This document shows positions 2,868 through 59,586 of a stretch of 64,000 nucleotides of DNA, one piece after another. The position numbers were made by a program, and so were the translations under genes. The stretch's first letter is position 1, and every line of letters begins with the position of its first letter. The stretch is from Sycon ciliatum. Its lineage: Eukaryota; Porifera; Calcarea; Leucosolenida; Sycettidae. The notes under the pieces are model-generated. The model searched no databases. It was not told where the DNA came from and was given only the letters and a program-made list of their open reading frames with translations. The stretch is taken from NCBI RefSeq assembly GCF_964019385.1, contig NC_088645.1, forward strand, positions 4,912,904 to 4,976,903, written 5' to 3'.

Positions 2868-2930
<63 letters not shown>
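2868..2930. repeat. (TG)n microsatellite
   Basis: About 31 uninterrupted TG units directly abut the 5' end of the SINE that starts at 2931. Confidence 0.95.
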
Positions 2931-2931
<1 letters not shown>

Positions 2932-10169: not shown

Positions 10170-10560
10170 AAAAAAGCATAGAGATGTTATAAATTCTTAT
10201 AAATTTCTCCTTTTTTTGTAAAGACATAATCTGGGATTCGAACCTGCACTATCGCCCTGGATGCATCTCCCGATACACTTCGCATACATACTAATTCTTC
10301 CAAGTTGCTTCACGTTGGTATTGGTATTGATTTATTTGAATTCGGTATCTCAACAGTACATTGTACAACTTGGGAAGATCCGAATGACATAGATACATAT
10401 CGTTATGATCTTGCATTTGAAAGCCCTATTTGAATATGTATTGTGACTAGCCGTCTTTGATGGTACGGTACGGGACAGGTACGGGTCAGGTATTGTCGAG
10501 GACAATACGACACAGTGTACCGCCTTGATGACCTAGGCAAAAAATGCATAAGGATGTTAT
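10170..10560 (-). repeat. Composite tRNA-like repeat, copy B left half (split by PLE)
   Basis: This inverted copy of the family shows the reverse complement of the B box near 10237. It ends at 10550-10560 with AAGGATGTTAT, the target duplicated by the Penelope-like element. The other half resumes at 15053. Confidence 0.7.
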
Positions 10561-10583
10561 ACAAGAGAGAGTTTGGAAGCTTT

Positions 10584-10629
10584 GTCACAACTCCGAGTTT
10601 CACGTATCTCTACGATCATCAGGCAACTG
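10584..10629 (-). ncRNA. Hammerhead ribozyme motif, PLE 3' copy
   Basis: The minus strand folds as a type I hammerhead. Stem I pairs the G-U-U-G-C side with GUGAC (with two G-U wobbles). The core is CUGAUGA, stem II is CGUA/UACG with a GAGA loop, then GAAA, and stem III is ACU/AGU with a three-base loop. Cleavage would follow a GUU triplet. The pair closing stem II next to the core is U/U instead of the usual G-C, so activity may be reduced. Confidence 0.6.
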
Positions 10630-10809
10630 ATGGATCCAAAACGGGCAGCCAGAACATAAGGGAGAGCAAGGTGGGAAATCCCGAGGGGTGTCATAGGCGA
10701 CGCGTATCATAGCGCAAGAGTCAGGTGCAGGCGTGAAGTTGCCAAGTCTTCAGACTTGGGGCTATGCAGCAGTAGTTCCGGCATGAATGATATAGAATAG
10801 AGCTGGGGG

Positions 10810-10922
10810 CAAATGCCAAATCCACACATGCCCACACCACAACACAAACATACACCCACACTCTCTCCCTTTTCTCACATACACATACACTCACACGCGC
10901 GTCCGCACACACATTCTCTAAA

Positions 10923-10960
<38 letters not shown>

Positions 10961-11114
10961 ACATTCATTCTCTATATCTCACACATGCACACGCACACAC
11001 ACATTCATTCTCTATATCACACACACACACACACGCATTCTCCAAATCTCACACACACATTCTCTAAATCTTACATACACACACACACACATTCTCCAAA
11101 TCTCACACAAACAT

Positions 11115-11180
<66 letters not shown>

Positions 11181-11329
11181 CCACAATACTCATCCTTTCA
11201 TTCTCACACCTACCGCACACATACTTGCACCCGCACTTATCCAATCACCTACACGCACTCTCTTTCTCACGAATGCACACAAACACACACACACACACAC
11301 ACATGCGCGCTCACACTCACACACACACA

Positions 11330-11369
<40 letters not shown>

Positions 11370-11370
11370 G
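10810..11370. repeat. (CA)n/(CT)n low-complexity region in PLE 3' part
   Basis: This block has irregular CA, CACG and CT runs with recurring CATTCTC(T/C)AAATCTCACA spacers. His/Thr/Ser-rich frames across it are artefacts. Confidence 0.9.
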
Positions 11371-11391
11371 CAGCAGGACTACCAGCTAGAT

Positions 11392-13536: not shown

Positions 13537-13678
13537 CCTCCGACACGAACAGTAAAGCGAGAGTGCTCTACCAATAGGGAGCCCTTGACGTAGTCAAGTG
13601 GTGTGCTTCACTGTCCGAAGAGTGCTCAATGCCCATGTAGGGCAGAGCCTTGTACACAAGAGAGAGTTTGGAAGCTTT

Positions 13679-13724
13679 GTCACAACTCCGAGTTTCACGT
13701 ATCTCTACGATCATCAGGCAACTG
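13679..13724 (-). ncRNA. Hammerhead motif, PLE unit 1 (directly upstream of ORF)
   Basis: It has the same fold as at 10584, with CUGAUGA, a CGUA/UACG stem II, GAAA, a three-pair stem III and a GUU cleavage triplet. In this copy the leader continues into the full-length ORF. Confidence 0.6.
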
Positions 13725-13969
13725 ATGGATCCAAAACGGGCAGCCAGAACATAAGGGGGAGCAAGGTGGGAAATCCCGAGGGGTGTCATAGGCGACGCGT
13801 ATCATCAGCCTCGTCGCCTTGCCCTTTCATAAAGAATATCGCCCGCCAACGCATCACCATTTCGATAAGCCTGGTTGTGTACTGGGCTGGCGACGGAAGG
13901 GGGATGTTCTTCATCGAGTAGTTCAAGTCCACCCGTTTTGGCGCCTACAAGAGAGAGTTTGGAAGCTTT

Positions 13970-14015
13970 GTCACAACTCCGAGTTTCACGTATCTCTACG
14001 ATCATCAGGCAACTG
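13970..14015 (-). ncRNA. Hammerhead motif, PLE unit 2
   Basis: The core and stems are identical to unit 1, displaced by exactly 291 bp. Confidence 0.6.
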
Positions 14016-14260
14016 ATGGATCCAAAACGGGCAGCCAGAACATAAGGGGGAGCAAGGTGGGAAATCCCGAGGGGTGTCATAGGCGACGCGTATCATCAGC
14101 CTCGTCGCCTTGCCCTTTCATAAAGAATATCGCCCGCCAACGCATCACCATTTCGATAAGCCTGGTTGTGTACTGGGCTGGCGACGGAAGGGGGATGTTC
14201 TTCATCGAGTAGTTCAAGTCCACCCGTTTTGGCGCCTACAAGAGAGAGTTTGGAAGCTTT

Positions 14261-14306
14261 GTCACAACTCCGAGTTTCACGTATCTCTACGATCATCAGG
14301 CAACTG
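14261..14306 (-). ncRNA. Hammerhead motif, PLE unit 3
   Basis: The core and stems are identical. The unit carries one base change outside the ribozyme (GATCATAAG instead of GAACATAAG near 14330). Confidence 0.6.
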
Positions 14307-14551
14307 ATGGATCCAAAACGGGCAGCCAGATCATAAGGGGGAGCAAGGTGGGAAATCCCGAGGGGTGTCATAGGCGACGCGTATCATCAGCCTCGTCGCC
14401 TTGCCCTTTCATAAAGAATATCGCCCGCCAACGCATCACCATTTCGATAAGCCTGGTTGTGTACTGGGCTGGCGACGGAAGGGGGATGTTCTTCATCGAG
14501 TAGTTCAAGTCCACCCGTTTTGGCGCCTACAAGAGAGAGTTTGGAAGCTTT

Positions 14552-14597
14552 GTCACAACTCCGAGTTTCACGTATCTCTACGATCATCAGGCAACTG
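14552..14597 (-). ncRNA. Hammerhead motif, PLE unit 4
   Basis: The core and stems are identical, displaced by 291 bp. Confidence 0.6.
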
Positions 14598-14842
14598 ATG
14601 GATCCAAAACGGGCAGCCAGAACATAAGGGGGAGCAAGGTGGGAAATCCCGAGGGGTGTCATAGGCGACGCGTATCATCAGCCTCGTCGCCTTGCCCTTT
14701 CATAAAGAATATCGCCCGCCAACGCATCACCATTTCGATAAGCCTGGTTGTGTACTGGGCTGGCGACGGAAGGGGGATGTTCTTCATCGAGTAGTTCAAG
14801 TCCACCCGTTTTGGCGCCTACAAGAGAGAGTTTGGAAGCTTT

Positions 14843-14888
14843 GTCACAACTCCGAGTTTCACGTATCTCTACGATCATCAGGCAACTG
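14843..14888 (-). ncRNA. Hammerhead motif, PLE unit 5 (5'-most)
   Basis: The core and stems are identical. This is the first ribozyme after the 5' end of the element. Confidence 0.6.
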
Positions 14889-15052
14889 ATGGATCCAAAA
14901 CGGGCAGCCAGAACATAAGGGGGAGCAAGGTGGGAAATCCCGAGGGGTGTCATAGGCGACGCGTATCATCAGCCTCGTCGCCTTGCCCTTTCATAAAGAA
15001 TATCGCCCGCCAACGCATCACCATTTCGATAAGCCTGGTTGTGTACTGGGCT

Positions 15053-15475
15053 AAGGATGTTATAATTTTTTCAATTCTCCTATTTTTTTAGGCATAACCT
15101 GGGATTCGATCTCGCACTATCGCCCTACATGCATTCCCCCATACACTTCGCATTAATACTCATTCTTCCAAGGTACTTCACGTTATGATCTTGCGTTTGA
15201 AAGCCCTATTTGAATAGAGCGGCCAGCTGTATGTGGCCAGCTGTATTTGATGCGTTTGAAAGCCCTATTTGAATATTGCGGCCAGCTGTTTGTGGCCAGC
15301 TGTGTTTGATGGTACGGTACGGTACGGGACAGATTACCGGATAGCGCCAGGCGTGACACAAACACACAAACAAACAAACACACAAATACCAAATTAAAGC
15401 TGCGTGGACCCTGGCTAGCGCCAGACGTTACTGAAGTAACGTCTTCTGCATAGCTACGGGAATAATTTTCCTTTC
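15053..15475 (-). repeat. Composite tRNA-like repeat, copy B right half
   Basis: The copy resumes after the PLE with the second AAGGATGTTAT. It then shows a reverse-complement B box (near 15103), the CCGTACC-type part and the GACGTTACT end near 15425. Confidence 0.7.
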
Positions 15476-17335: not shown

Positions 17336-17773
17336 CCGTACTCCAGCGAATCAGCACCTTTCGCGCCGCGGGCAATAATATGCGATATTGCCCGCAAAAA
17401 AATAGTTTATTTGCCCGCAAAAAAATAGTTTATTTCAGTGATCGCGTGACTACGACGACTCTGTAGACTGTACGACTCTACGACGAGTCGCAGTGTAGCA
17501 TTGAGACGAAGATGGAATTCTTTTTGGAGATGGACATCCCGGCAATGGACATGGCCTCGGACGTCTGCCGTGTGGTGCTTGCAGGGATCATTTGTTCAGT
17601 CAGACTCATGTTGGCAGCCTGACCGTCGGTAAGCTTGTGGATAAGATTCAGTTCTGCTCGAAGTGGTACTGTGATCACAAACAATTATTTGAAATAACAC
17701 AAATTCAACTCAGCGTCGTGCGTTTTCAAATCCTCGCAAAGTCACTGCCTGTTGACTACAAAACAAGTTGTTT

Positions 17774-17822
17774 CACACGACGTACGTTTCGCCGTATGGT
17801 TCGTGACGGCTCATCAGGTGTG
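17774..17822 (-). ncRNA. Hammerhead ribozyme, type I, single copy
   Basis: The minus strand gives stem I CACAC/GUGUG (five pairs) and core CUGAUGA. Stem II is GCCGU/ACGGC (five perfect pairs, loop CACGAACCAU), followed by GAAA. Stem III comes from the self-complementary ACGUACGU, and the cleavage triplet is GUC. Every core position is canonical, including the G-C pair closing stem II. The scissile bond lies between 17779 and 17778. The stem and loop sequences are unlike the PLE and retrozyme hammerheads in this window. No second copy was found nearby. It could be the remaining unit of a retrozyme or of another PLE end. Confidence 0.82.
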
Positions 17823-17856
17823 CAATTTGAAACTCGGATATTGAGCCAATAATAAA

Positions 17857-27430: not shown

Positions 27431-29420
27431 CTGAAAGTCGCAAACTTCAGCGACAACAATGATCGCATCGAGATACCAACGTGCCTGGACAACCATGACC
27501 CAAGGTCAGCAGCGAAGCTCAGATGGCTTCCCGATACAGGCAGTAACGCCGATGCAATAAACCTGGATGGACTTCGGAAACTGGGAGGCAAGGAATGTGA
27601 CCTTGTCCCGGACCCCAGTGTTGTTCTGAATGCCAATGGAGGTCGCCTCACGAACATAGGCATGGTCACGGCTTTGCTGTCGGTCGGTGATCGCCAGATC
27701 GCAACACAGATCCACGTGTATGAGGGGTTGCAATGCCCGCTGCTATCGAGGCAGAGTCTGAAGAAATGCGGAATACTTCCGGCAGACTTGCCAAGAAGTG
27801 CGCTATCTCTGTTGCGTCCTGCTCCCGGCCAAATGCCCAACTCCGAGGAGCGGAGTGAAATCGAACTGATCCGAGAGGATATTTTTAAGGAATACACTGA
27901 TGTGTTTAGCGACTATGCAGTGCCAACCATGACAGGTCCGCCGATGGTTATCAAGCTCAACGACGGGGCCACACCATGCATATTTAACGGAGCTTGAGCG
28001 ATTCCGTTTGCTTACCGTGATCAGGTCAAGGAACAGCTTGATCAGATGGTGAAGGAAAGAGTCTTTGAACCAGTGAGCGACCCTTGTGATTGGTGCCACC
28101 CAATCGTGCTGACTGACAAAAAGAACACTGCTGAAAAGCGCCTCACAATGGACTTGATTAAGCTCAATTCACAGGTTCAACGACCAACGCACCCCATGCG
28201 CACCCCGCGAAACGCCATTGAGAATCTTGAGAATGCCCGCTTCTTAACCACACTTGATGCCCCTCATGGGTACTGGCAAGTATCATTGGCACCTGAATCG
28301 CGTCATTTAACCACATGTATCACTCCATGGGGGCGATACCGTTTCCTTCAAAATCCGCAGGGTTTCATCGTGGCGGGGGATAAGTTTAACCAGCAAACGG
28401 ATCAAGCATTTGAGGGCATCAGCAATTTTGCAAAAGTTGTAGATGATTGTTTGGTGCATGACGCGACTTTCAATGATCATGTAAAGCGTGTCCGTTCGGT
28501 TTTGCAGTGTGCGCGAGAGAATGGCATCACATTCTCAAAGAAGAAATTCGCTTTCGCTCAGTCAGAGGTTCAGTTCTGCGGGTACTTCGTCAGCGAAGGC
28601 GGATGGCGTATGGAACCAGAGAGAGCGTCGGCATTGGGACAATTTCCGACCCTGACCACACACACTGATCTCCGCTCATTTCTGGGCTTGGTTATTCAAT
28701 TCGGTGATTTCAGCGATGAAATCGCCAAATTGACGCAGCCATTACGGAGTCTGCTGAAGGCAAATGCTGAGTTCCTTTGGAACCAGGATCATGACGCCGC
28801 AATGTTGAATATCAAATCTTCCTTGTTGCGAACACCGACCCTGGCGTACTATGAGTTTGGTGCTCCCACTCGCTTGGGACCGATGCCTCTCGAAATAACG
28901 GTCTCGGTTATGCACTCCTACTGTTGCAAGGAGGAAATTGGCGATTGATTCAATGCGGCAGCCGATTCATTTCAGATACCGAATCACGATACGCGATGAT
29001 AGAATTAGAGCTACTAGCTATTGCTTGGGCAATGAAGAAATGTCATGTCTATCTCTCCGGGACGAAATTCGAGGTGATAACTGACCATCACCCACTCATT
29101 CCCGTTATGAATAAGTACTCACTGATGGAAATCGAAAATCCCCGCATTCGGCGAATGTTGCTTAAGTTGCAGGGGTACCCGTACCTCGTTTCGTGGCGCA
29201 AGGGAAACGACCACGCTATCGCAGACGCACTGTCCCGCTCGCCGATTGGTCAGCCGACTAAGGAGGACACTGCCATTGGGGAACTGCCCTACGAGGATTG
29301 TGGTCGAGTGGCGTCGGTTACTACCCTCTGTGGCGACGATCAGCAGCCTATTCTCTCAAGCTGCAAAGAAGTGACAGCTCCAGGAAGCAGTACGGGCCGA
29401 CAATGCCTACCAACAGCTCA
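27431..29420 (+). pseudogene. Gypsy-1 pol: protease, reverse transcriptase, RNase H
   Basis: The protease active site is LPDTGSNADAI (about 27530). RT follows after a stop at 27995: ERVFEPVSDPCDWCHPIV, RLTMDLIKLNSQV, FLTTLDAPHGYWQV and the catalytic box VVDDCLVHD (usually YVDD or FVDD). RNase H starts near 28850 and continues in another frame with LIQCGSRFISDTESRYAMIELELLAI and FEVITDHHPLI. The domain order PR-RT-RH is that of Ty3/Gypsy. It carries a stop, a frameshift near 28920 and core-motif changes. Confidence 0.85.
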
Positions 29421-38429: not shown

Positions 38430-38910
38430 TTATAGGGGATTCACACACACACGGGTAAACCTGAGGTCACGGGACAAGGTAAAAGTTCAGACCTTCGGTC
38501 AAAGGAGTGGGGCTGTTCACACCCGTTGTCAGTTTTCCCTTGGCCGCACGTTTGGCCATGAACTTGTGGCGGGGCCACTAAAAAAATAATCTGTACTGCA
38601 TTTTTGTAGTACATTCTGTACTGTATCTTGCATTCACCATGCACGATTTTCCTATGGGCACTGTCTGAAAATGCAAGTTGCGATGCACTCGTACTTCAAG
38701 TGCAACTAAGGTTCAGAGTTCTCGCCAAATATAAGATCTACGCATGCGCGTCTTATAGCCATGGGATTTTTCCCTTGACAAACGCCCTGAGGCCCACGGC
38801 CACGGCTTTGCCAATGTTTTCCCGAGAGGTTCTTCCTTTCCCCAGTACCATAGTTTCCATACCAATTTTCCCATAACCGTGGTTTTACCCATGTGTGTGA
38901 ATCCCCTATA
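38430..38910. mobile_element. MITE with about 40-bp terminal inverted repeats (complete copy)
   Basis: Both ends read TATAGGGGATTCACACACA inward, with matching GGGTAAA(A)CC beyond. It is about 480 bp with no coding capacity. The left inverted repeat contains the breakpoint of the 5.95-kb duplication: the second copy (44397 on) begins inside it, with CACACGGG. Confidence 0.75.
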
Positions 38911-38917
38911 ACCCTCT

Positions 38918-38987
38918 GCAGGCAGGCATAGTGGGATGGTCTAAGACCATGATTGAGAAACAGAGGGTACCAGGTTCAAGTCCTGCA
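38918..38987 (+). mobile_element. tRNA-Leu/Ser-like SINE head (in duplication copy 1)
   Basis: The ends TGCAGG and CCTGCA pair. An A-box-like TAGTGGGATGGTCTAAG and a B box GGTTCAAGTCC are present, with a TTGAGAA loop between. It lies eight bases after the MITE. The stem bases are poor, so it is a tRNA-derived SINE and not a tRNA gene. The element body probably extends to about 39140. It has an identical copy at 44867-44937. Confidence 0.5.
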
Positions 38988-39855
38988 TGGAAGCGGAAGG
39001 AATTTTTCCAGCCGTGCTGCGACCCACAGTTGATTGGGATCTCGTGGCCTGGCCGGTTGACATGCACTGTGAAATATACACTGTTATAATTATTGAAGTT
39101 CGAAGCTCCGACATGCAATTGCACATTTCACAGGCAATGATGCATTTTGATGTGAAGTGAAAATTGTATGAGGGGCAGAGAGCGGATATGAAACAGTCCC
39201 ACTCGGGTACCCTCCCTAGTAAGACCTCTATAGCGCTGAAAAAAGAGTGAAGACGAAGCCAGAGTTTCCGTGTTTGAGCTGATGGATCACTTGTGGGGTA
39301 GTTTTCTTTTACGAGATTTTTCTTTTCAAATTTCAAAATCTAGAGCAAAGGAAAACCCGGTTCAGGGTTGGTATACACTGTTTTATATCCGTACTTTGCT
39401 CCTCATACCATGCCCACTTCACATCAATTGCTGTGAAATGGGCAATTATTTTCAAAAGTAAAATTAATGCAAGGGCGCGCTAGCTTGTACCTAGAGCTTG
39501 TCCAGGTCCACCACGTCTCGTCATGCAGGTCAGCTACCTTTCTCTCTTTCTTTTTTGTATGCGTTCCTTTTTCGTCAAATTTATTTTCGGTGTATTTATT
39601 TCGTGAAGTTTTTTGTAGTGTGTGCGCGCGTGTGTTCATAAAATATTACTAAATTAGAGATCCGATCATGGTGAGCCACGCTCTAATTTTTGATGTTTAG
39701 CAGAAGTGCAACTACGCTATTTTTAGCCATGCAAGCAGTATCAGTAGGTTCCTGGTCACGTCTAGTTTCTTATCTTTAGACTTAGAGAAGTACAGGAACA
39801 ATAACTGTAATGCATGATACTAGTAAACACTTTTGTGAGATCCGTGCGTACGTGC

Positions 39856-39896
<41 letters not shown>
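39856..39896. repeat. (TG)n microsatellite, duplication copy 1
   Basis: About 20 TG units. The copy-2 tract (45806-45850) is 4 bp longer. Confidence 0.9.
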
Positions 39897-39899
<3 letters not shown>

Positions 39900-40001
39900 T
39901 CTGTTTTTTCTCCCTCAGTCATTTTTTATCTTTTTCTCTCTTTTTTCTTTCTTTTTTTTCTCAGCGAGGACGCGGCATTCTTTTTTCATGGAGGGGTGGT
40001 A

Positions 40002-40337
40002 TGTTAGGCCCACAAGTAACTACAGTATATTAATTCATATAATTCATTAGTTCATGCATTATTCATTTGGCCTGGGTAGCTACTTGCGCGTGGATGTTTG
40101 CCATGGCTACCCAGACCCTTTATATTGCGTTGCTTCTCTCTTCAACTCTCTCTCTCCTCAATAAGCTCTCTTCAACTCTCTCTCTCTCTCTTCAGTAAGC
40201 CCTCTAAAATAATCTCCCTCTTCAATAATCACCATGTAGTCGTTTCGTTCGTCCTGGTCTTAGTCGTCCCGTATATAATAAAAGTCGTTCGAGCAACATA
40301 CCTGTTCCCGTTGTCAGTCTCTTGTTCGCACTCAACA
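40002..40337 (+). repeat. Possible solo LTR (duplication copy 1)
   Basis: It starts TGTTAGGCCC and ends CTCAACA. It has a TATA-like TTTATATTG, CTCTCT-rich middle and AATAAAA near 40278, an arrangement typical of LTRs. No target duplication was seen and no partner LTR is present, so the call is tentative. Confidence 0.35.
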
Positions 40338-40992
40338 GTCGTTTAAAAAAAACACCCTGGCTGGCTGCTCCGCTACTCTAGTCAATCGCACAGAATCAGT
40401 GCACGAATCGGCTATGCAGCTTCAAAAGCGTCCATACTCCCACAGTAGCGAGGGAAGGTTGCAGCTCACACTCCACATTCCTTTTGCTGAAAGCTCTGTT
40501 GTGTTTTTGAGTGTTGCATTTTTTGAAGAAGAGTGTACTTCTATGGTGTAGCTTTCACAGTTCTGCTCCGTCTACTTCAAGTAGCTTTCTCTTCACAGTG
40601 AAAGGCGAGTTTGTAGCGTTGAAACCACTCGCGCCAGAGCGGCTAAGTGATTTTGTTCCACACCTAGAATCGAAGTCATTTGAGCTCCGTACTCCCTATC
40701 AGTCGCCAAGTAAAATGGCGAGTGCTCAACATGGCTACCTAGTTGGAGGGCTTGACTTTGCACATGGGTGTTGTCTGCACCCACGCATCACACATTCTGC
40801 ATAATTCACTGGCCTGTCAATCAATTATATTGAAAGCTTTCGGTCCGGATCTCGCCACTGCATGACTCAGTTACAACCAGTTATGACCAGTAGCTTTAGA
40901 CGTCATCTTCGCTTTGGACGTCAACATCGCTCCAGCAAAGCCGCAGTGTCTTGAAAGTATTGCTAAAACATGTATGGCAGCTATCTGTCATG

Positions 40993-41392
40993 TTCAAAGC
41001 AAGACCAGCATGTCCAGTAGTTCAAAGCTAGACCAACATGTCCAGTAGTTCAAAGCTAGACCAACATGTCCAGTAGTTCAAAGCTATACCAACATGTCCA
41101 GTAGTTCAAAGCTAGACCAACATGTCCAGTAGTTCAAAGCTAGACCAACATGTCCAGTAGTTCAAAGCTAGACCAACATGTCCAGTAGTTCAAAGCTAGA
41201 CCAACATGTCCAGTAGTTCATAGCTAGACCAGCATGTCCAGTAGTTCAAAGCTAGACCAACATGTCCAGTAGTTCATAGATAGACCAACATGTCCAGTAG
41301 TTCAAAGCTAGTCTAACATGTCCAGTAGTTCAAAGCTAGACCAACATGTCCAGTAGTTGATAGCTAGTCCAGCATGTCCAGTAGTTCATACT
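40993..41392. repeat. 28-bp satellite array (duplication copy 1)
   Basis: About 14 head-to-tail units of AGTTCAAAGCTAGACCAACA plus TGTCCAGT occur, with scattered substitutions. There are no spacers, so it is not CRISPR-like. Confidence 0.95.
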
Positions 41393-41929
41393 ATACACCC
41401 TCCTTCAGGTCAGCGTCCTTTTTCTCCCAGCCAACGCCCTTACCAGTATTAGTATGGAGTCATGCTCACACACTCGGATTGCGCCCAAATTATCTGCCAG
41501 AACTACAACTTTGGCCCCAGTATAAGTCCTGCCGCTTCCACTATAACCACTCTCGATAACTGTGCTCCAAGACTGGTACAAAAGCCTTTAACACTTCCCA
41601 GTAAGATCACTAACTCCTTTGTTTACCCTCAGAAATAACCTTGCACACTTCCACTTTTCGCTCACCTTTGAATGTTGCCCGTTTTTTGTCCTTCCTATGT
41701 ATCGAATTAGACTCATATTTTCGTGAATTATTCTGCATGGCTTGAATCATGGGTTTATTGTCAGCTTCTAATTAATTTTACCTTTCCAGCAAATGTCACT
41801 TCTCTGAATCTCTCTTCTGCTGCCACACACGCTTAGCTATATCTGACCATTTCACTACCTCATTTAATCACAGGGGAGACTAAGTCTTCCTTACTTCACC
41901 CCTATTATTTTTACGCAATGTAATGTTCA

Positions 41930-42640
41930 GGCATTGGTGCAGTGCCAAAGAAAAATGGAAAGATGCACGTGATTCACCTCACGTCCAGGCCACTTGGGAA
42001 TAGTTTCAATGACGGTATGCTTATCATAGTATGGCTGGTATATGGTACCATTCAGCACACTGACTTACTTCGGATATCAACATTACTTCCACCATCCAGT
42101 GCGACTCTTTTTCTCAGCACAGCCTCGAGTCCCTTATGGTGAAGCTCTCCTCTGCAGCACGTTGGGTTGTGCCGGGCCGTAAGTTTCCACAATGTCTCTG
42201 GTCTTGTTGCAGCAGGTATCAAAAGCCTCTCAACAAGATACAGTAAAACCGGACCTAACCGGACACCCTTGCTGCAGCGAAAACCGTCATGATATATCAG
42301 AATTCCGCTTGGTCCAAGGATGCATGTTTGATCCACAGTACTTTGGTGCAGAAACATCCGGTCAATACAAGATTCTGCTTCGGACAAGGTTGGGCAAACA
42401 CAGGTTGTACTGTAGCTCTTAACTCTGATGCTATGGAAGATATCAGGTTGTGGCAGCATCTACTGCAACACTGGATTGGTAAATCATTTTTCCTGCATTC
42501 CGACTGGCCTCCATTGCCGAATCTACAACTATAATAATATTTGGATGCAAGTGGTTCTCGTGTCTGGGAAGTCTACAGGAATGTCTGCCTGGTGTATCAA
42601 TGGCACCTGGACAAGTGAAGAAGTAGAAAGAGAGACATCA
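41930..42640 (+). pseudogene. Decayed DIRS-like RT/RNase H fragment (duplication copy 1)
   Basis: The first part reads GAVPKKNGKMHVIHLTSRPLG and NSFNDGM, an RT finger motif of DIRS-like enzymes. After an inserted MITE (42241-42412), the sequence continues DIRLWQHLLQHWIGKSFFL and, in a shifted frame, LDASGSRVWEVY and VYQWHLD, matching RNase H (DASG box). The palm with its catalytic aspartates is absent. Several stops occur. Confidence 0.55.
42241..42412. mobile_element. pogo/Tigger-like MITE inside the RT fragment (copy 1)
   Basis: The ends CAGTAAAACC and GGTTGTACTG are inverted and flanked by TA on both sides. It is 172 bp and splits the RT/RNase H pseudogene. It has an identical copy at 48195-48366. 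Confidence 0.65.
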
Positions 42641-42849
42641 TGTGGCATGTGCCTTATGCCTTGCCAATTGTTTGCACCACCTGGTACGATGATGAGGCAA
42701 AGCTATGTACAGTGCATCCTCGTTCACTGCACTAATGAAGTAGTTGTAGATTATGTAAAGTCGGACTGTAGCAAATCATTCCCAGCGATGCAACTACTCC
42801 TCATTGGCAGACAGGAGACCTTTATGAGAACGAAGAGAAATTAAAATAC

Positions 42850-43380
42850 AGTTGAAACGGTAGGAATGAACATTTGTCTCTGCCAAACACAACTTTACTA
42901 TTCAGCCACCCAAATGTCACGGAGAAGAAACTTGACTGCCGAGTCTTTGTCACGTTTCTTTAGAAGGGCATCTTGGTAGCTCACTCCGGTGCGAAGAACC
43001 TACCGGACGATGTGATCTTGCCCCGATACATGGGGAAGTAAGCTAGTATGCTGGATGTGTTATATCTTCTAATGCAGGACACACCTATTCGACTGGCGAT
43101 ATACACACGCTCCCCCGCGCACACCTGGGCATACCAAATTTTTCCAACGCACATGCACTCACAAGCAATTGATATGTTGTGTTGGGGGTTACAATCATTT
43201 CCTTTTGGATATGGATGTTAGAAGAATATGCTCAGTGCAGTTTCCAAGTTCGAGGGAAGTTGTGAACGGAAAAGCAGTTAGCAGTTTAATGTTTTGGACA
43301 TAATAGTATTAATTTTGATTATAGACTGGCTCTAAGGAAGCAATCGATAACTGTTGCACCATGATATCATCACATATTTT
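42850..43380. other. No recognised gene (duplication copy 1)
   Basis: There are no frames or motifs of note. The stretch leads into the 48-bp minisatellite. Confidence 0.4.
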
Positions 43381-43389
43381 GATCTTCAG

Positions 43390-44065
43390 TGATTCCCACC
43401 GCCCACCGAGAGCCGACACACAAATGGCCCCAAAGGGCTAGCCCACAGCTGTCCACCATGGTCCAATCACACGAGCGGCCATATAGGCCGACAGGCAGCC
43501 CACCAAGAACTAAATGATCCTGTGAGCACCAGGCTGCTAGCATACTGCCCACCTAGGGTGCACAAATGGCCGGCGCTGCCAGCAACCTGCCCACCAAGGG
43601 TGCATGGATGGCCTTTGAGGCCAACAACCTGCCCACCGACAGCTAAAGCCACCTGCTCACCGGATACTAATACATTATTATACCCCACCGAGGACTGAAG
43701 AAAACTGCCTACCTTGAGCTAAAACATTCACATCACCGAGGGCTGAAGTAAACTGCTCACCTTGAGCTAAAACATTCACCCCACCGAGGGCTGAAGAAAA
43801 CTGCCCACCTTGAGCTAAAACCTTCACATCACCGAGGGCTGAAGTAAACTGCCCACCTTGAGCTAAAAAAATCACCCCACCGAGGGCTGAAGCAAACTGC
43901 CCACCTTGAGCTAAAACATTCACCCCACCGAGGGCTAAAGCAAACTGCCCACCAGGAGTTAACACATACACCCCACCGAGGCCTGAAGTAAACTGCCTAC
44001 GGGAGCTCACATGTACACCCCATTGAGGGCTAAAGCAACCTGCTCACCGGAGGCTAACACATACT
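43390..44065. repeat. 48-bp minisatellite (duplication copy 1)
   Basis: The units, such as CCCACCGAGGGCTGAAG plus CAAACTGCCCACCTTGAGCT, are regular at 43680-43990 and degenerate on both sides. The unit is 16 codons, which creates a repetitive minus-strand frame (GGVNVLAQGGQF) that is not considered a gene. Confidence 0.85.
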
Positions 44066-44396: not shown

Positions 44397-45805
44397 CACA
44401 CGGGTAAACCTGAGGTCACGGGACAAGGTAAAAGTTCAGACCTTCGGTCAAAGGAGTGGGGCTGTTCACACCCGTTGTCAGTTTTCCCTTGGCCGCACGT
44501 TTGGCCATGAACTTGTGGCGGGGCCACTAAAAAAATAATCTGTACTGCATTTTTGTAGTACATTCTGTACTGTATCTTGCATTCACCATGCACGATTTTC
44601 CTATGGGCACTGTCTGAAAATGCAAGTTGCGATGCACTCGTACTTCAAGTGCAACTAAGGTTCAGAGTTCTCGCCAAATATAAGATCTACGCATGCGCGT
44701 CTTATAGCCATGGGATTTTTCCCTTGACAAACGCCCTGAGGCCCACGGCCACGGCTTTGCCAATGTTTTCCCGAGAGGTTCTTCCTTTCCCCCAGTACCA
44801 TAGTTTCCATACCAATTTTCCCATAACCGTGGTTTTACCCATGTGTGTGAATCCCCTATAACCCTCTGCAGGCAGGCATAGTGGGATGGTCTAAGACCAT
44901 GATTGAGAAACAGAGGGTACCAGGTTCAAGTCCTGCATGGAAGCGGAAGGAATTTTTCCAGCCGTGCTGCGACCCACAGTTGATTGGGATCTCGTGGCCT
45001 GGCCGGTTGACATGCACTGTGAAATATACACTGTTATAATTATTGAAGTTCGAAGCTCCGACATGCAATTGCACATTTCACAGGCAATGATGCATTTTGA
45101 TGTGAAGTGAAAATTGTATGAGGGGCAGAGAGCGGATATGAAACAGTCCCACTCGGGTACCCTCCCTAGTAAGACCTCTATAGCGCTGAAAAAAGAGTGA
45201 AGACGAAGCCAGAGTTTCCGTGTTTGAGCTGATGGATCACTTGTGGGGTAGTTTTCTTTTACGAGATTTTTCTTTTCAAATTTCAAAATCTAGAGCAAAG
45301 GAAAACCCGGTTCAGGGTTGGTATACACTGTTTTATATCCGTACTTTGCTCCTCATACCATGCCCACTTCACATCAATTGCTGTGAAATGGGCAATTATT
45401 TTCAAAAGTAAAATTAATGCAAGGGCGCGCTAGCTTGTACCTAGAGCTTGTCCAGGTCCACCACGTCTCGTCATGCAGGTCAGCTACCTTTCTCTCTTTC
45501 TTTTTTGTATGCGTTCCTTTTTCGTCAAATTTATTTTCGGTGTATTTATTTCGTGAAGTTTTTTGTAGTGTGTGCGCGCGTGTGTTCATAAAATATTACT
45601 AAATTAGAGATCCGATCATGGTGAGCCACGCTCTAATTTTTGATGTTTAGCAGAAGTGCAACTACGCTATTTTTAGCCATGCAAGCAGTATCAGTAGGTT
45701 CCTGGTCACGTCTAGTTTCTTATCTTTAGACTTAGAGAAGTACAGGAACAATAACTGTAATGCATGATACTAGTAAACACTTTTGTGAGATCCGTGCGTA
45801 CGTGC

Positions 45806-45853
<48 letters not shown>

Positions 45854-48800
45854 TCTGTTTTTTCTCCCTCAGTCATTTTTTATCTTTTTCTCTCTTTTTT
45901 CTTTCTTTTTTTTCTCAGCGAGGACGCGGCATTCTTTTTTCATGGAGGGGTGGTATGTTAGGCCCACAAGTAACTACAGTATATTAATTCATATAATTCA
46001 TTAGTTCATGCATTATTCATTTGGCCTGGGTAGCTACTTGCGCGTGGATGTTTGCCATGGCTACCCAGACCCTTTATATTGCGTTGCTTCTCTCTTCAAC
46101 TCTCTCTCTCCTCAATAAGCTCTCTTCAACTCTCTCTCTCTCTCTTCAGTAAGCCCTCTAAAATAATCTCCCTCTTCAATAATCACCATGTAGTCGTTTC
46201 GTTCGTCCTGGTCTTAGTCGTCCCGTATATAATAAAAGTCGTTCGAGCAACATACCTGTTCCCGTTGTCAGTCTCTTGTTCGCACTCAACAGTCGTTTAA
46301 AAAAAACACCCTGGCTGGCTGCTCCGCTACTCTAGTCAATCGCACAGAATCAGTGCACGAATCGGCTATGCAGCTTCAAAAGCGTCCATACTCCCACAGT
46401 AGCGAGGGAAGGTTGCAGCTCACACTCCACATTCCTTTTGCTGAAAGCTCTGTTGTGTTTTTGAGTGTTGCATTTTTTGAAGAAGAGTGTACTTCTATGG
46501 TGTAGCTTTCACAGTTCTGCTCCGTCTACTTCAAGTAGCTTTCTCTTCACAGTGAAAGGCGAGTTTGTAGCGTTGAAACCACTCGCGCCAGAGCGGCTAA
46601 GTGATTTTGTTCCACACCTAGAATCGAAGTCATTTGAGCTCCGTACTCCCTATCAGTCGCCAAGTAAAATGGCGAGTGCTCAACATGGCTACCTAGTTGG
46701 AGGGCTTGACTTTGCACATGGGTGTTGTCTGCACCCACGCATCACACATTCTGCATAATTCACTGGCCTGTCAATCAATTATATTGAAAGCTTTCGGTCC
46801 GGATCTCGCCACTGCATGACTCAGTTACAACCAGTTATGACCAGTAGCTTTAGACGTCATCTTCGCTTTGGACGTCAACATCGCTCCAGCAAAGCCGCAG
46901 TGTCTTGAAAGTATTGCTAAAACATGTATGGCAGCTATCTGTCATGTTCAAAGCAAGACCAGCATGTCCAGTAGTTCAAAGCTAGACCAACATGTCCAGT
47001 AGTTCAAAGCTAGACCAACATGTCCAGTAGTTCAAAGCTATACCAACATGTCCAGTAGTTCAAAGCTAGACCAACATGTCCAGTAGTTCAAAGCTAGACC
47101 AACATGTCCAGTAGTTCAAAGCTAGACCAACATGTCCAGTAGTTCAAAGCTAGACCAACATGTCCAGTAGTTCATAGCTAGACCAGCATGTCCAGTAGTT
47201 CAAAGCTAGACCAACATGTCCAGTAGTTCATAGATAGACCAACATGTCCAGTAGTTCAAAGCTAGTCTAACATGTCCAGTAGTTCAAAGCTAGACCAACA
47301 TGTCCAGTAGTTGATAGCTAGTCCAGCATGTCCAGTAGTTCATACTATACACCCTCCTTCAGGTCAGCGTCCTTTTTCTCCCAGCCAACGCCCTTACCAG
47401 TATTAGTATGGAGTCATGCTCACACACTCGGATTGCGCCCAAATTATCTGCCAGAACTACAACTTTGGCCCCAGTATAAGTCCTGCCGCTTCCACTATAA
47501 CCACTCTCGATAACTGTGCTCCAAGACTGGTACAAAAGCCTTTAACACTTCCCAGTAAGATCACTAACTCCTTTGTTTACCCTCAGAAATAACCTTGCAC
47601 ACTTCCACTTTTCGCTCACCTTTGAATGTTGCCCGTTTTTTGTCCTTCCTATGTATCGAATTAGACTCATATTTTCGTGAATTATTCTGCATGGCTTGAA
47701 TCATGGGTTTATTGTCAGCTTCTAATTAATTTTACCTTTCCAGCAAATGTCACTTCTCTGAATCTCTCTTCTGCTGCCACACACGCTTAGCTATATCTGA
47801 CCATTTCACTACCTCATTTAATCACAGGGGAGACTAAGTCTTCCTTACTTCACCCCTATTATTTTTACGCAATGTAATGTTCAGGCATTGGTGCAGTGCC
47901 AAAGAAAAATGGAAAGATGCACGTGATTCACCTCACGTCCAGGCCACTTGGGAATAGTTTCAATGACGGTATGCTTATCATAGTATGGCTGGTATATGGT
48001 ACCATTCAGCACACTGACTTACTTCGGATATCAACATTACTTCCACCATCCAGTGCGACTCTTTTTCTCAGCACAGCCTCGAGTCCCTTATGGTGAAGCT
48101 CTCCTCTGCAGCACGTTGGGTTGTGCCGGGCCGTAAGTTTCCACAATGTCTCTGGTCTTGTTGCAGCAGGTATCAAAAGCCTCTCAACAAGATACAGTAA
48201 AACCGGACCTAACCGGACACCCTTGCTGCAGCGAAAACCGTCATGATATATCAGAATTCCGCTTGGTCCAAGGATGCATGTTTGATCCACAGTACTTTGG
48301 TGCAGAAACATCCGGTCAATACAAGATTCTGCTTCGGACAAGGTTGGGCAAACACAGGTTGTACTGTAGCTCTTAACTCTGATGCTATGGAAGATATCAG
48401 GTTGTGGCAGCATCTACTGCAACACTGGATTGGTAAATCATTTTTCCTGCATTCCGACTGGCCTCCATTGCCGAATCTACAACTATAATAATATTTGGAT
48501 GCAAGTGGTTCTCGTGTCTGGGAAGTCTACAGGAATGTCTGCCTGGTGTATCAATGGCACCTGGACAAGTGAAGAAGTAGAAAGAGAGACATCATGTGGC
48601 ATGTGCCTTATGCCTTGCCAATTGTTTGCACCACCTGGTACGATGATGAGGCAAAGCTATGTACAGTGCATCCTCGTTCACTGCACTAATGAAGTAGTTG
48701 TAGATTATGTAAAGTCGGACTGTAGCAAATCATTCCCAGCGATGCAACTACTCCTCATTGGCAGACAGGAGACCTTTATGAGAACGAAGAGAAATTAAAA

Positions 48801-50350
48801 TACAGTTGAAACGGTAGGAATGAACATTTGTCTCTGCCAAACACAACTTTACTATTCAGCCACCCAAATGTCACGGAGAAGAAACTTGACTGCCGAGTCT
48901 TTGTCACGTTTCTTTAGAAGGGCATCTTGGTAGCTCACTCCGGTGCGAAGAACCTACCGGACGATGTGATCTTGCCCCGATACATGGGGAAGTAAGCTAG
49001 TATGCTGGATGTGTTATATCTTCTAATGCAGGACACACCTATTCGACTGGCGATATACACACGCTCCCCCGCGCACACCTGGGCATACCAAATTTTTCCA
49101 ACGCACATGCACTCACAAGCAATTGATATGTTGTGTTGGGGGTTACAATCATTTCCTTTTGGATATGGATGTTAGAAGAATATGCTCAGTGCAGTTTCCA
49201 AGTTCGAGGGAAGTTGTGAACGGAAAAGCAGTTAGCAGTTTAATGTTTTGGACATAATAGTATTAATTTTGATTATAGACTGGCTCTAAGGAAGCAATCG
49301 ATAACTGTTGCACCATGATATCATCACATATTTTGATCTTCAGTGATTCCCACCGCCCACCGAGAGCCGACACACAAATGGCCCCAAAGGGCTAGCCCAC
49401 AGCTGTCCACCATGGTCCAATCACACGAGCGGCCATATAGGCCGACAGGCAGCCCACCAAGAACTAAATGATCCTGTGAGCACCAGGCTGCTAGCATACT
49501 GCCCACCTAGGGTGCACAAATGGCCGGCGCTGCCAGCAACCTGCCCACCAAGGGTGCATGGATGGCCTTTGAGGCCAACAACCTGCCCACCGACAGCTAA
49601 AGCCACCTGCTCACCGGATACTAATACATTATTATACCCCACCGAGGACTGAAGAAAACTGCCTACCTTGAGCTAAAACATTCACATCACCGAGGGCTGA
49701 AGTAAACTGCTCACCTTGAGCTAAAACATTCACCCCACCGAGGGCTGAAGAAAACTGCCCACCTTGAGCTAAAACCTTCACATCACCGAGGGCTGAAGTA
49801 AACTGCCCACCTTGAGCTAAAAAAATCACCCCACCGAGGGCTGAAGCAAACTGCCCACCTTGAGCTAAAACATTCACCCCACCGAGGGCTAAAGCAAACT
49901 GCCCACCAGGAGTTAACACATACACCCCACCGAGGCCTGAAGTAAACTGCCTACGGGAGCTCACATGTACACCCCATTGAGGGCTAAAGCAACCTGCTCA
50001 CCGGAGGCTAACACATACTTCCTCCGCGTCATTAAAATTGTCGCTTCGCACATCACAATGTTTGTGGCTTGCTCGTCTTAGTCGAACTTTCGGAATCGAT
50101 GTTTTCTGTGTTCGAACATTGGAGCCACCCTTCCTGAGCAATGTCTACTTGTCATTGAAGCCATGGTGGTCTCGGACTTTGTCAGAGCTCTCTTCAGCAC
50201 TAAATATATTCATTGCGCTCCGCACTATTCTGCTCCAGAGCACGTATCTTTTTTCTGGAGTTCTTGCCCTTCCACATAGTTTGCGTGGGCATTTATCAAG
50301 ACTGCAAGCTCGGGTATAAGAATCATGGTATCTGTCCTGAATTCGAAATG
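44397..50350. repeat. 5.95-kb tandem duplication, copy 2
   Basis: This is the second copy of 38447-44396 at 5,954 bp. It carries the same items: a MITE lacking its left end (to 44859), a SINE head (44867-44937), (TG)n at 45806, possible LTR 45956-46291, 28-bp satellite 46947-47346, RT/RNase H pseudogene 47884-48594 with MITE 48195-48366, and the 48-bp minisatellite 49344-50019. Confidence 0.95.
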
Positions 50351-56273: not shown

Positions 56274-58416
56274 AGTATGACTGGTCAGTATGACTGGTCA
56301 GTCTGGGTGGTTAGTATGACTGGTCAGTTTGGATGGTTAGTCTGGGTGCTTAGTCTGGATGCTCAGGCGATGGGAGTATAACTGAACTTTATGTTGATAC
56401 TCACAGCAGTTTCACTCTTCCTGCAACATCTTCTTCCCTCTCCATTGTCAAAAATGAGTATTACCTCACCGTTTCAACATGTTCCTCTATCAAATGTTTA
56501 GCATCTGTATCCTCACAAAATATTAGCCAAGTTCGTTTCCTCGGGAGGAACTTCGGGGTTCATTGAAGGGTTCACAATGTACCAAGCACCTACCTTTTCA
56601 ATTAAAAATGCTTCAACATGTATATGATGTGGTCGACCTTTGCTCGCAAGCTAAGCACATGTGATGTCATCAGGTCTTCCTCGCTTTGGGAAATTCCAAA
56701 AAATATTTCCCACTCCACTCAATAATACTTGTGCATAGTTGTTTTTGTTGGAGAGGTCTTCTGTTACACCTACCATACCTTTGTTTAGCCATCGGAAACA
56801 TGATCTGGAGAATGAGACTGGAGTGCCTCTGTAACCCATCACTGCTGATCCCATACTATACCGGGATTCTAGATGACGACCAGGCTCTGAGCCCGTAGTA
56901 TTACGTGGTCATAATTATACATGGTGTGTTGATGAGAATTTGCAGGGCAGGTGTATGTTTAGATGATTGTTATGTGGTTAGTTCTTACTCAATTCTCACA
57001 ATCGAAATATTATGTAGGTCGAAAAGAATGCTCTCAGCTTGCGCTTGCAACAATCCTTGAGTTAATGGATTTACTATTCATTGACTTATGGCGCTCAACA
57101 GAGACGCATATCCACATGCGGTCCAATATGTTTTGCACATTGCTTGGACACTTGATATTCTTTGTTTAGCTCTTTTTCCCAGCTTGCAGTCATGACACCC
57201 TCAGTTCAAATCAAGCAATGTACTTACAGAAGTGTTAAAACATCTTTGCGCTCGATACGACCAAGGAGAGTCGAATGGGACAAAGGGGAAAAATTTTCTT
57301 GGTTCTTCACCTTGTCTCCGACATTGTTTTGAAGATTGGTGCATCAGCTCATAATTTTCCTTCTTGCAATAGCTTTCCAGGAAGACTATAATATTTCGAG
57401 GAAAGATGTCCGAGTTACCGTACTTTAAGTTTGATGTGTGTTTTCAGTAAAAATGAATCGTTTCCCCTGGTTCTTAGAGCTCTGGCAGCAGTAGAGGGGA
57501 CGGTTTTAAATAGGAAATAGGTTAAAAACCGGAATGGACTCAATATTCACTTTCTCTCTTGGTATTTTGATTAGAAAACATAATAATTATGTCACAGTGA
57601 GACTACGATGTGTTTTACTCCGAGCCAGCATTTCATGGCTCTGCGATTACCAAAAGCGCCATAACAAGCAGGTGAGTTTTTGACCTGTTGCTTCGCACTG
57701 CGACTTGAGCTTTACCTCTTTCGAAACATCAACTTCTTGTCGCACACGGCTGTTCCAGTGCAGCCACTTAACAATATGGCGTCGTTCGTTGCGATTTATG
57801 TAACATTGTAGGAATAGTGCAAATACAGAATGAGTTTGCGTTTTTGGAAGAAACTCATGTCACTCCTCGCGTGGTTTCACGATTTGGGAAGCGAATCCAA
57901 GAGGAAAGTTTTGAAAGCGTTCGAGCGAGATACTCGACGATTAGGTAATTTGAGAGAGAAAAAGGGTGGAAAGGCTTCCTGGCCTGCCCAGTTAGCTGTC
58001 TTTCCAGTTCAAACTTGCTCAAAACTGCTCCTGGTGGTCCAGAGATTGACCGCCTCTGTGATTATCGGCCTCTGCTTGGCGTTCGCGCGTGTACAATATT
58101 CAAATTGGACATTTCGTACTCGTTCAACGCACAATAGGAGAGATATCACAATTTCCAGCTGACTTGGCCAGCTGCTGTCTTCTTCCACAATATCCCGCAT
58201 GCCAACTAAGCAATTTACAGCAGGAAGCAGCCTTCTAGGCTCAACAGCAACTAAAGGGCCACGCCATTTGTCTTCCAAATCAAGAGAAAACAGGTTCCTG
58301 GCCCGCATCGCGAACTCAGAAGTTCATGCGCGAACAACAACGATACTCAGGGAAGACAACCAGAGGATAGTCCTCTACCTGGGAAATATATAAATTATAT
58401 ATTTAATATATATATA
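56274..58416. other. 2.1 kb without recognised genes
   Basis: It starts with imperfect GACTGGTCAGTCTGGGTG repeats (56274-56370), matching 52730-52812 on the other side of the hAT insertion. A plus frame at 57830-58162 and an overlapping minus frame at 58009-58308 (about 100 codons each) match no family I know. The last 35 bases before the retrozyme array are AT-only. Confidence 0.4.
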
Positions 58417-58422
58417 CCCAAT

Positions 58423-58470
58423 GCTGTAGACAGCAAGCTGTTTCGGCCATAAAGGCCTCATCAGTACAGC
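58423..58470 (-). ncRNA. Hammerhead ribozyme, retrozyme unit 1
   Basis: Stem I is GCUGUA/UACAGC (six pairs). The core CUGAUGA is followed by stem II GGCC/GGCC with a UUUAU loop and GAAA. Stem III is ACAG/CUGU with a CUUG loop, and the cleavage triplet is GUC. All conserved core positions are present. The scissile bond lies between 58429 and 58428. Confidence 0.92.
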
Positions 58471-58659
58471 TACGAGCTAAATAGGCCGAGTTACCAGCCA
58501 TGGTGCAAAGGAGGCACCACAGACATTAAGGTAGCTCGTCGCTCTAGCGCCAGAGTGCTCAAACTACAAAAAGTAGCGGGCATTGCGCGATGCAGCAGCA
58601 CTAGAGCAGCCTACTGAGAGTGCTCAACAAGGCGAAAGCCGAGGAGCGTGATACCCAAT

Positions 58660-58707
58660 GCTGTAGACAGCAAGCTGTTTCGGCCATAAAGGCCTCATCA
58701 GTACAGC
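58660..58707 (-). ncRNA. Hammerhead ribozyme, retrozyme unit 2
   Basis: The core and stems are identical to unit 1. Confidence 0.92.
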
Positions 58708-58896
58708 TACGAGCTAAATAGGCCGAGCTACCAGCCATGGTGCAAAGGAGGCACCACAGACATTAAGGTAGCTCGTCGCTCTAGCGCCAGAGTGCTCAAA
58801 CTACAAAAAGTAGCGGGCATTGCGCGATGCAGCAGCACTAGAGCAGCCTACTGAGAGTGCTCAACAAGGCGAAAGCCGAGGAGCGTGATACCCAAT

Positions 58897-58944
58897 GCTG
58901 TAGACAGCAAGCTGTTTCGGCCATAAAGGCCTCATCAGTACAGC
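58897..58944 (-). ncRNA. Hammerhead ribozyme, retrozyme unit 3
   Basis: The core and stems are identical to unit 1. The unit has one extra A in an A-run downstream (near 59043). Confidence 0.92.
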
Positions 58945-59134
58945 TACGAGCTAAATAGGCCGAGTTACCAGCCATGGTGCAAAGGAGGCACCACAGACAT
59001 TAAGGTAGCTCGTCGCTCTAGCGCCAGAGTGCTCAAACTACAAAAAAGTAGCGGGCATTGCGCGATGCAGCAGCACTAGAGCAGCCTACTGAGAGTGCTC
59101 AACAAGGCGAAAGCCGAGGAGCGTGATACCCAAT

Positions 59135-59182
59135 GCTGTAGACAGCAAGCTGTTTTGGCCATAAAGGCCTCATCAGTACAGC
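59135..59182 (-). ncRNA. Hammerhead, retrozyme unit 4, core mutated
   Basis: On the plus strand TTTCGGCC has become TTTTGGCC. The minus-strand core therefore reads AAAA in place of GAAA, changing the invariant G12 that acts in catalysis. All stems are intact. This unit should not self-cleave, so a transcript would yield a dimer here. Confidence 0.85.
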
Positions 59183-59371
59183 TACGAGCTAAATAGGCCG
59201 AGTTCCCAGCCATGGTGTAAAGGAGGCACCACAGACATTAAGGTAGCTCGTCACTCTAGCGCCAGAGTGCTCAAACTACAAAAAGTAGCGGGCATTGCGC
59301 GATGCAGCAGCACTAGAGCAGCCTACTGAGAGTGCTCAACAAGGCGAAAGCCGAGGAGCGTGATACCCAAT

Positions 59372-59419
59372 GCTGTAGACAGCAAGCTGTTTCGGCCATA
59401 AAGGCCTCATCAGTACAGC
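59372..59419 (-). ncRNA. Hammerhead ribozyme, retrozyme unit 5
   Basis: The core and stems are identical to unit 1. Confidence 0.92.
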
Positions 59420-59586
59420 TACGAGCTAAATAGGCCGAGTTACCAGCCATGGTGCAAAGGAGGCACCACAGACATTAAGGTAGCTCGTCGCTCTAGCGCC
59501 AGAGTGCTCAAACTACAAAAAGTAGCGGGCATTGCGCAATGCAGCAGCACTAGAGCAGCCTACTGAGAGTGCTCAACAAGGCGAAA

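Follow-up and report, generated by a model that had tools for sequence, protein, structure and literature searches.

Results

Organization of the array and its hammerheads

The window, i.e., the whole stretch of 64,000 nucleotides of Sycon ciliatum DNA analysed here, contains at positions 58417–59586 (minus strand) a tandem array of a repeat which we call family A. Its units lie at 58417–58653, 58654–58890, 58891–59128, 59129–59365, and 59366–59586 and are 237, 237, 238, 237, and 221 bp long, the fifth being partial. Tandem Repeats Finder, applied to the window, places the array at 58414–59586 with a period of 237, 4.9 copies, and 98% matches. The five tandem 237-bp units of the preliminary description are thus recovered, with the last one incomplete. 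The units had also been described as non-coding, which agrees with our analysis: no open reading frame of at least 120 amino acids overlaps the array, six units joined head to tail contain no stop-free run longer than 54 amino acids, and circular translation of the unit gave no endless frame. The GC content is 53.6% for family A, and 49.6% and 47.8% for the families B and B′ introduced below.

We scanned both strands with a strict motif demanding a perfect hammerhead core and all three stems. The motif was found on the minus strand in units 1 (58421–58473), 2 (58658–58710), 3 (58895–58947), and 5 (59370–59422), and within the array on this strand only; the scan returned two further matches in the 64-kb window and one in 20 mononucleotide shuffles of the window. 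The hammerhead of unit 4 (59133–59185, minus strand) reads CAAAA instead of CGAAA in the core, i.e., G12 is changed to A, at a CpG. Such a change should inactivate the ribozyme. The canonical core, previously ascribed to every unit, is therefore present in four of the five. The stems and the GUC cleavage triplet proposed for the minus strand agree with the strict scan: stem I is GCUGUA/UACAGC with 6 bp (DNA GCTGTA/TACAGC) and is followed by CUGAUGA, stem II is GGCC-UUUAU-GGCC (DNA GGCC-TTTAT-GGCC) and is followed by GAAA, and stem III can be written as CAGC-TT-GCTG, more likely being 3 bp plus an A-U pair closed by a CUUG loop. When 70 nt of context are considered, the hammerhead fold adds five pairs to stem I past a 2 × 2 internal loop; a stem I extended beyond an internal loop resembles the canonical layout of type I hammerheads. 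In ViennaRNA calculations, whose model leaves tertiary contacts outside, the hammerhead fold lies 0.6–4.2 kcal/mol above the minimum (0.6 kcal/mol in the 70-nt context) and is never the minimum itself; its probability ranges from 0.06 to 0.0004 across seven contexts, which counts against the assignment.

A match of the Rfam type I model on the minus strand had been anticipated. This was not borne out, as RF00163 (type I) gave no match to family A even below threshold; only the type III model RF00008 scored, likewise below threshold, with 25.9 bits (E 0.0088) for four units and 22.2 bits (E 0.1) for unit 4. Since Rfam at gathering thresholds gave no match of any family in the whole window, we built a covariance model, R1, from families A and B. 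It recognizes all five hammerheads, giving 76 bits for four units and 71.6 bits for unit 4, scores which have to be read with the window unit being one of the five training rows. Two further sequences, the solitary hammerhead described next and that of locus L050, were kept out of R1 because MAFFT misaligned both with A and B.

This solitary type I hammerhead (17771–17826, minus strand) has a perfect core and a palindromic GUAC stem III loop, and scores 22.1 bits (E 7.5e-5) with R1 and 26.8 bits, below gathering, with RF00163. It adjoins an interspersed repeat (17440–17752) with 1,044 first-look candidates in the genome. We considered whether the hammerhead is part of this repeat and rejected the idea, as 39/40 matches begin past the hammerhead (query position 99 or 110) and the self match alone spans it. 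Further solitary hammerheads were seen with R1 at L050 (2800–2854, 27 bits) and L051 (680–730, 40.3 bits); in the latter locus there is also, at 2207–3120, a roughly 282-bp tandem repeat in which four tRNA-like matches exceed the gathering score of Rfam. Elsewhere in the window there is a direct duplication of about 5.95 kb (38448–44000 and 44397–50000) with 28-bp and 48-bp tandem repeats in each copy, and at 28046–28948 (plus strand) a reverse-transcriptase ORF (PF00078, E 4.5e-15) among the broken frames of another retroelement.

Copies of family A in the genome

The Sycon ciliatum assembly searched comprises 538 Mb in 313 contigs. The search for other loci which the preliminary description had proposed revealed dispersed copies: the unit query gave at least 120 matches among the 40 scored of 1,327 candidates, and the 17-nt unit end occurs exactly 745 times, with no occurrence of the reversed control. 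From the 40 scored candidates we obtained 38 arrays with flanks, which together with the window array form a set of 39 that is biased to long, young copies. For counts of independent arrays we left out L027 and L028 (copies of L026), L030 (a copy of L015), L034, and L042 (composite), so that 34 remain; all five are retained in the 39-array counts.

On the RNA 3′ side the arrays have a common internal end, GUC^UACAGCAUUGGG, in all 39 cases. In the window this fixed end (GGG, then TA) lies at 58415–58417 on the minus strand, and the same junction is found in the 38 further arrays; it is the putative start of reverse transcription, 12 nt 3′ of the ribozyme cut. TA follows in 36/39 arrays. This is also the next dinucleotide of family A itself inside the arrays, and being common to template and target it is weak evidence of a target preference. 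Target duplications of 8–16 bp flank 25/39 arrays, and duplications of at least 8 nt were seen in only 87/1,482 mismatched left–right pairs. Where an exact duplication of at least 8 nt is present (25 arrays), TA is found in the left copy as well, with none lacking it among those listed. Many of the duplications are AT repeats, exceptions including TACTTTCAAAGTGA (L010) and TATCATCAAACTA (L026). For the window array itself the duplication is ambiguous, the candidate TATATATA lying within AT repeats, which counts against the reading as a retroelement.

The 5′ (left) ends are ragged. With a tolerance of 3 nt, none of the 34 independent arrays has a length that is an integer multiple of the unit. 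Clustering of these ends is not significant, the best 19-nt window holding 9/34 ends, which is equalled in 145/2,000 uniform simulations; an excess near the cleavage site (3/34 at 221–231 with 1.6 expected, and 2/20 at 225–226) is suggestive only. At L018 the target duplication and the 5′ end of the array are separated by a stretch of C residues that looks like a non-templated addition.

We also inspected 20 singly listed family A ends on contig C1, among which L126/L127 and L135/L136 each seem to be duplicates of a single insertion. The inserts are 20–250 nt long, so that among the sampled solo ends short 5′-truncated copies are the majority and long arrays a tail. Strict duplications of at least 8 nt are present in only 3/20 of these copies, which counts against the reading, vs 0/380 mismatched pairs. 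TA is next in 14/20, which counts against a target preference for this dinucleotide.

Variation among the units

Scored as departures from the majority sequence of the family, 37 variants occur throughout their array, 4 are shared by a subset of its units, and 125 are confined to a single unit. Such a pattern would follow if a single uniform template had given rise to each array in one round of copying, with later decay; at the sequence level there is one haplotype per array. The hammerhead core is intact in 105/112 hammerhead-bearing units of the 39 arrays, and the change of G12 to A is seen in 4 of these 112. Variable positions amount to 35 of 5,459 in the hammerhead span vs 229 of 18,161 elsewhere, a comparison which is descriptive only because inherited variants are counted repeatedly.

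A second family

From the flanks of A arrays and from loci found with RF00163 we obtained family B (226 bp) and B′ (228 bp), which have their own hammerhead. In an alignment fitted to the model (51 hits, 29 of them distinct, weak ones included) 11/14 pairs change on both sides, which was reached in 0/500 shuffles; judged from this alignment, the hammerhead of family B carries compensatory changes. A and B are unlike over most of their length. They have in common GTTGAGCACTC at unit position 26 (A) and 25 (B), and AGTTTGAGCACTCTGGC at 89 (A) and 90 (B), counted from the 3′ junction. The end could be read at 15 B loci, 14 of which stop at GUC^CGCAGAUUGAG; L015/L030 and L065/L066 look like copies of one insertion each. 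TA is next in 8/15 loci, which counts against a general preference for it. At L002, L014, L015, L030, and L043 (L015 and L030 being copies) A arrays adjoin family B hammerheads.

Penelope-like elements

A Penelope-like element occupies positions 10562–15051 of the window (minus strand). It has the double box described below and is our candidate for an autonomous helper. The intact ORF of 714 amino acids (11392–13536, minus strand) is assigned to a Penelope-like reverse transcriptase by BLASTP and alignment: it matches the reverse-transcriptase region of a 902-aa GIY-YIG/RT ORF of the same genome (E 2e-6, 21% identity), is 64% identical to the ORF of the element at L139, and has at least 2,898 homologues at E 1e-20 among 7,999 candidates scored, with an invariant aspartate pair in the 36 aligned rows. 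A search of Pfam gave no family at E 1, which counts against the element as the helper. For a possible GIY-YIG endonuclease there is a consensus YIGLTE motif, and PF01541 was found in 1 of 120 listed homologues.

The element is bounded by identical 13-bp target duplications TATAACATCCTTA (minus strand) on its 3′ side (10549–10561) and its 5′ side (15052–15064), and ends with CTCTCTTG|TA. At its 5′ side there is a 291-bp leader tandem with 4.8 copies (13656–15052, minus strand), every copy comprising a hammerhead-like motif and 95 bp from the beginning of the ORF, and a leader copy is also present at the 3′ side; the two may form a partial-tandem pseudo-LTR. The tandem units lack the boxes, and their junctions CTCTCTCTTG|TA equal the element's own 3′ end sequence. 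The tandem could have arisen through several insertions into the same site, or it could be an emerging element made of the leader alone. The hammerhead-like motif of the leader copy adjoining the ORF (13679–13722, minus strand) has U-U at the base of stem II, and another copy of the motif lies at 10584–10627 (minus strand); its stem II is weak and it reaches no significant score in R1.

Penelope-like elements thus coexist with the hammerhead-bearing arrays in this genome, as GIY-YIG/RT tandems and as double-box elements. The tandem 2,475-bp element at L139 is of the second kind and has a 749-aa frame and the double box. The first kind is represented by L097 and L098 (G000:C1:78524400-78539300), tandem 2,935-bp elements with an open 902-aa RT/GIY-YIG frame in near-identical copies. 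The L097 type has an internal end CTTC|TA in 20/20 fetched copies, the exact end varying by several bases within the TAATCTC of the element. We rejected it as a helper because no box was found within three mismatches in a 661-nt piece and no unusual word is shared with family A.

The double box and the putative start sites

The sequence TTGAGCACTCT is present twice in families A and B, 65–67 nt apart. In the window array (minus strand) the pair of unit 1 spans 58552–58627, with box 1 at 58617–58627 and box 2 at 58552–58562. Box 1 and box 2 follow at 58854–58864 and 58789–58799 in unit 2, at 59092–59102 and 59026–59036 in unit 3, at 59329–59339 and 59264–59274 in unit 4, and at 59566–59576 and 59501–59511 in unit 5. 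The Penelope-like element of the window has box 1 (TTGAGCACTCT) at 13619–13629 and box 2 (TAGAGCACTCT, one mismatch) at 13560–13570, both on the minus strand and in front of the 714-aa ORF. The pair TTGAGCACTCT...TTGAGCACTCT occurs at 2,637 places in the genome and its reversed control at none. Among the matches listed, all on C1, four pairs were by eye neither A- nor B-like: two lie in the tandem element of L139, one in a fragment of that kind (L140), and one is unclassified.

The distance between the last copied base and the first T of box 1 is 27 nt in A, 26 nt in B and B′, and 28 nt in the Penelope-like element of the window. For elements of the window type 37/44 matches end at query positions 228–247, 36 of them at 228–237; of the other seven, four come from the tandem units in the window and one is the self match. 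The 20 copies fetched all end at CACTTGAC, 23 nt ahead of box 2, and TA follows in 19 cases. The element in the window itself ends at the other site, before box 1, and not at CACTTGAC. Among the Penelope-like junctions L113/L114, L149/L153, L151/L155, and L156/L157 look like copies of one insertion each.

For the L139 type we predicted the ends beforehand, namely at query 149–151 (27 nt before box 2) and/or at 81–89. Of 43 matches, 22 end at 150–151, 29 at 150–152, and 31 at 150–156; ten reach the end of the query, one ends at 173 and one at 91. The predicted start is borne out in 29/43 matches, and the first site (81–89) is hardly used. All of 20 fetched copies with ends at 150–152 show the junction, TA being next in 14/20; as these copies were picked for that end, the sharpness of the end rests on the count of 43 matches.

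Two observations count against a common mechanism. The starts differ, the family A and B units beginning before box 1 and most Penelope-like copies before box 2, and outside the boxes the two kinds of element have little in common. The 11-nt word common to A and the window leader was equalled in 11/2,000 shuffles.

Discussion

A proposed cycle

The array is almost certainly a retrozyme, as the preliminary description had proposed from the hammerheads. This reading holds because of the dispersed copies, the target duplications, the fixed 3′ and ragged 5′ ends, the haplotypes, and the compensatory changes of family B, and the candidate helper supports it as well. We further consider it probable that a double-box Penelope-like element moves the array. 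As a whole, the explanation that Sycon ciliatum harbours a non-autonomous animal non-LTR retrozyme propagated by the cycle outlined here seems to us a likely one, and the arrays arose by retrotransposition, probably with rolling-circle copying of a circular RNA.

From these genomic traces we infer the following steps. Self-cleavage of minus-strand transcripts at every hammerhead would release 237-nt units, which a host ligase would close into circles. A double-box Penelope-like element, of the kind at 10562–15051, would supply the reverse transcriptase, which would recognize the two TTGAGCACTCT boxes and open AT-rich DNA at TA, the first strand beginning 26–28 nt 5′ of box 1. In the retrozyme this start point would lie 11–12 nt to the 3′ side of the ribozyme cut, at a place where UA is present in the RNA, too. 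The enzyme would then circle the template a variable number of times and stop anywhere, leaving a fixed 3′ end, a ragged 5′ end, a non-integer length, one haplotype, and a target duplication.

The Penelope-like element of Anolis starts reverse transcription internally at two adjacent sites, in AT-rich targets, needs the RNA 3′ of the start, and has a hammerhead upstream, the ribozyme being dispensable in vitro, a point against the proposed cycle (Frangieh 2024, PMC11167929, as far as the available part of that report goes). The boxes of Sycon ciliatum lie just 3′ of the start, where the Anolis element needs RNA, so that a role in docking is the simplest reading. On balance we lean towards the view that TTGAGCACTCT, present twice about 60–67 nt apart, docks a Penelope-like reverse transcriptase which starts 23–28 nt 5′ of a box. 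The retrozymes would then be stripped-down Penelope-like leaders, consisting of ribozyme and docking code, whose 226–237-nt circles hijack the enzyme.

Alternative explanations

The same retrozyme and helper could also operate on an uncleaved multimeric transcript of an existing array. In the accessible part of the Anolis study unprocessed RNA is the dominant substrate and ribozyme mutants were still inserted (PMC11167929), and the four variants common to a subset of units would fit such a template. A multimer, however, should pass on private mutations of the parental units to subsets of the progeny, and the subset variants are few compared with the 37 in all units and the 125 in single units; moreover, the hammerhead core is nonetheless intact in nearly all units. 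Judging from these patterns the circle appears to be the likelier template, and the multimer a possible, if doubtful, one. A different question is whether another enzyme, a LINE or another Penelope-like element, moves the retrozyme, with the boxes serving otherwise, e.g., in the promotion of transcription. The abundant 902-aa type also ends internally beside TA in all copies fetched, the reverse-transcriptase ORF at 28046–28948 is present in the window, and long duplications are typical of LINEs, too, according to the part of the literature at hand (PMC4918200). Against this stand the missing box and the missing common word in the 902-aa type, and the start 23–28 nt before a box in A, in B, and in two Penelope-like types, and we regard another mover as unlikely.

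Two explanations dispense with a retrozyme altogether. Integrated copies of an exogenous viroid-like RNA would account for the small self-cleaving unit, which is viroid-sized; with a hammerhead on one strand only of the array, Penelope-like signals in two families, and a high genomic copy number this is very improbable. To ordinary satellite DNA, grown by unequal crossing-over, we give practically no credence: head-to-tail units of constant length are what it would produce, and the junctions already disfavour it, since short arrays and truncated single copies lie scattered in the genome, with target duplications around them and an invariant 3′ end, and few variants are common to a subset of units.

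Relation to known systems

Retrozymes, their long duplications, and a suspected link to Penelope-like elements are already known, as the available portions of two reports state (PMC7229834, PMC4918200). Our literature search, with partial coverage and subscription journals mostly outside it, found no report of retrozymes in sponges. Within the same coverage the box and the start distance, which point to a helper, look new: in a single genome, two families of retrozymes and two types of Penelope-like elements carry the same duplicated 11-nt box, and the distance from the start to a box is nearly the same in all of them. The spread of animal retrozymes thereby becomes testable, as defined RNAs can be assayed for binding and reverse transcription, and the duplicated box together with the start site provides a signature for seeking helpers in other animals. 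If true, the docking-code reading identifies helper and parasite together.

The closest relatives are the metazoan non-LTR retrozymes, which in the accessible text have a type I hammerhead, non-coding tandem units of 170–400 nt without LTR, a GC content under 50%, long target duplications, and Penelope-like elements in the same genomes (Cervera and de la Pena 2020, PMC7229834). There the enzyme copying them was left open, autonomous Penelope-like elements being named a "strong candidate". The Sycon ciliatum elements share with them the type I hammerhead, the non-coding 237-bp tandem, the duplications, and the coexisting Penelope-like elements. They differ in the sponge host and in the 53.6% GC of family A, low GC being a described tendency and not an essential feature, and, as far as that text goes, in three features seen for family A, namely the fixed start, the single haplotype of each array, and the box in common with Penelope-like elements. 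The repeats of Nematostella are likewise tandem type I hammerheads flanked by duplications, of 15 bp, with no helper named for them in the available text (PMC4918200). Amphibian hammerhead repeats are, in the part at hand, also tandem and of type I but have larger units (330–350 bp) and a weaker stem III than family A; in one repeat type of the axolotl (PMC7229834) the base of stem II is a U-U mismatch, and likewise in the Penelope-like leader of the window. Plant LTR retrozymes are hammerhead-bearing and non-coding as well, and theirs form circular RNAs; they differ in having type III hammerheads, LTRs, PBS/PPT, and 4-bp duplications, again from the accessible part (PMC4918200), and in the units of family A no LTR, primer-binding site, or polypurine tract was noticed. 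The Anolis Penelope-like element differs in that its starts lie in an AC-rich stem loop inside the ORF, and in the available part of the report no duplicated box is described; it resembles the Sycon elements in its two adjacent internal starts, its AT-rich targets, its upstream hammerhead, and the importance of the RNA 3′ of the start, where the Sycon elements have their boxes.
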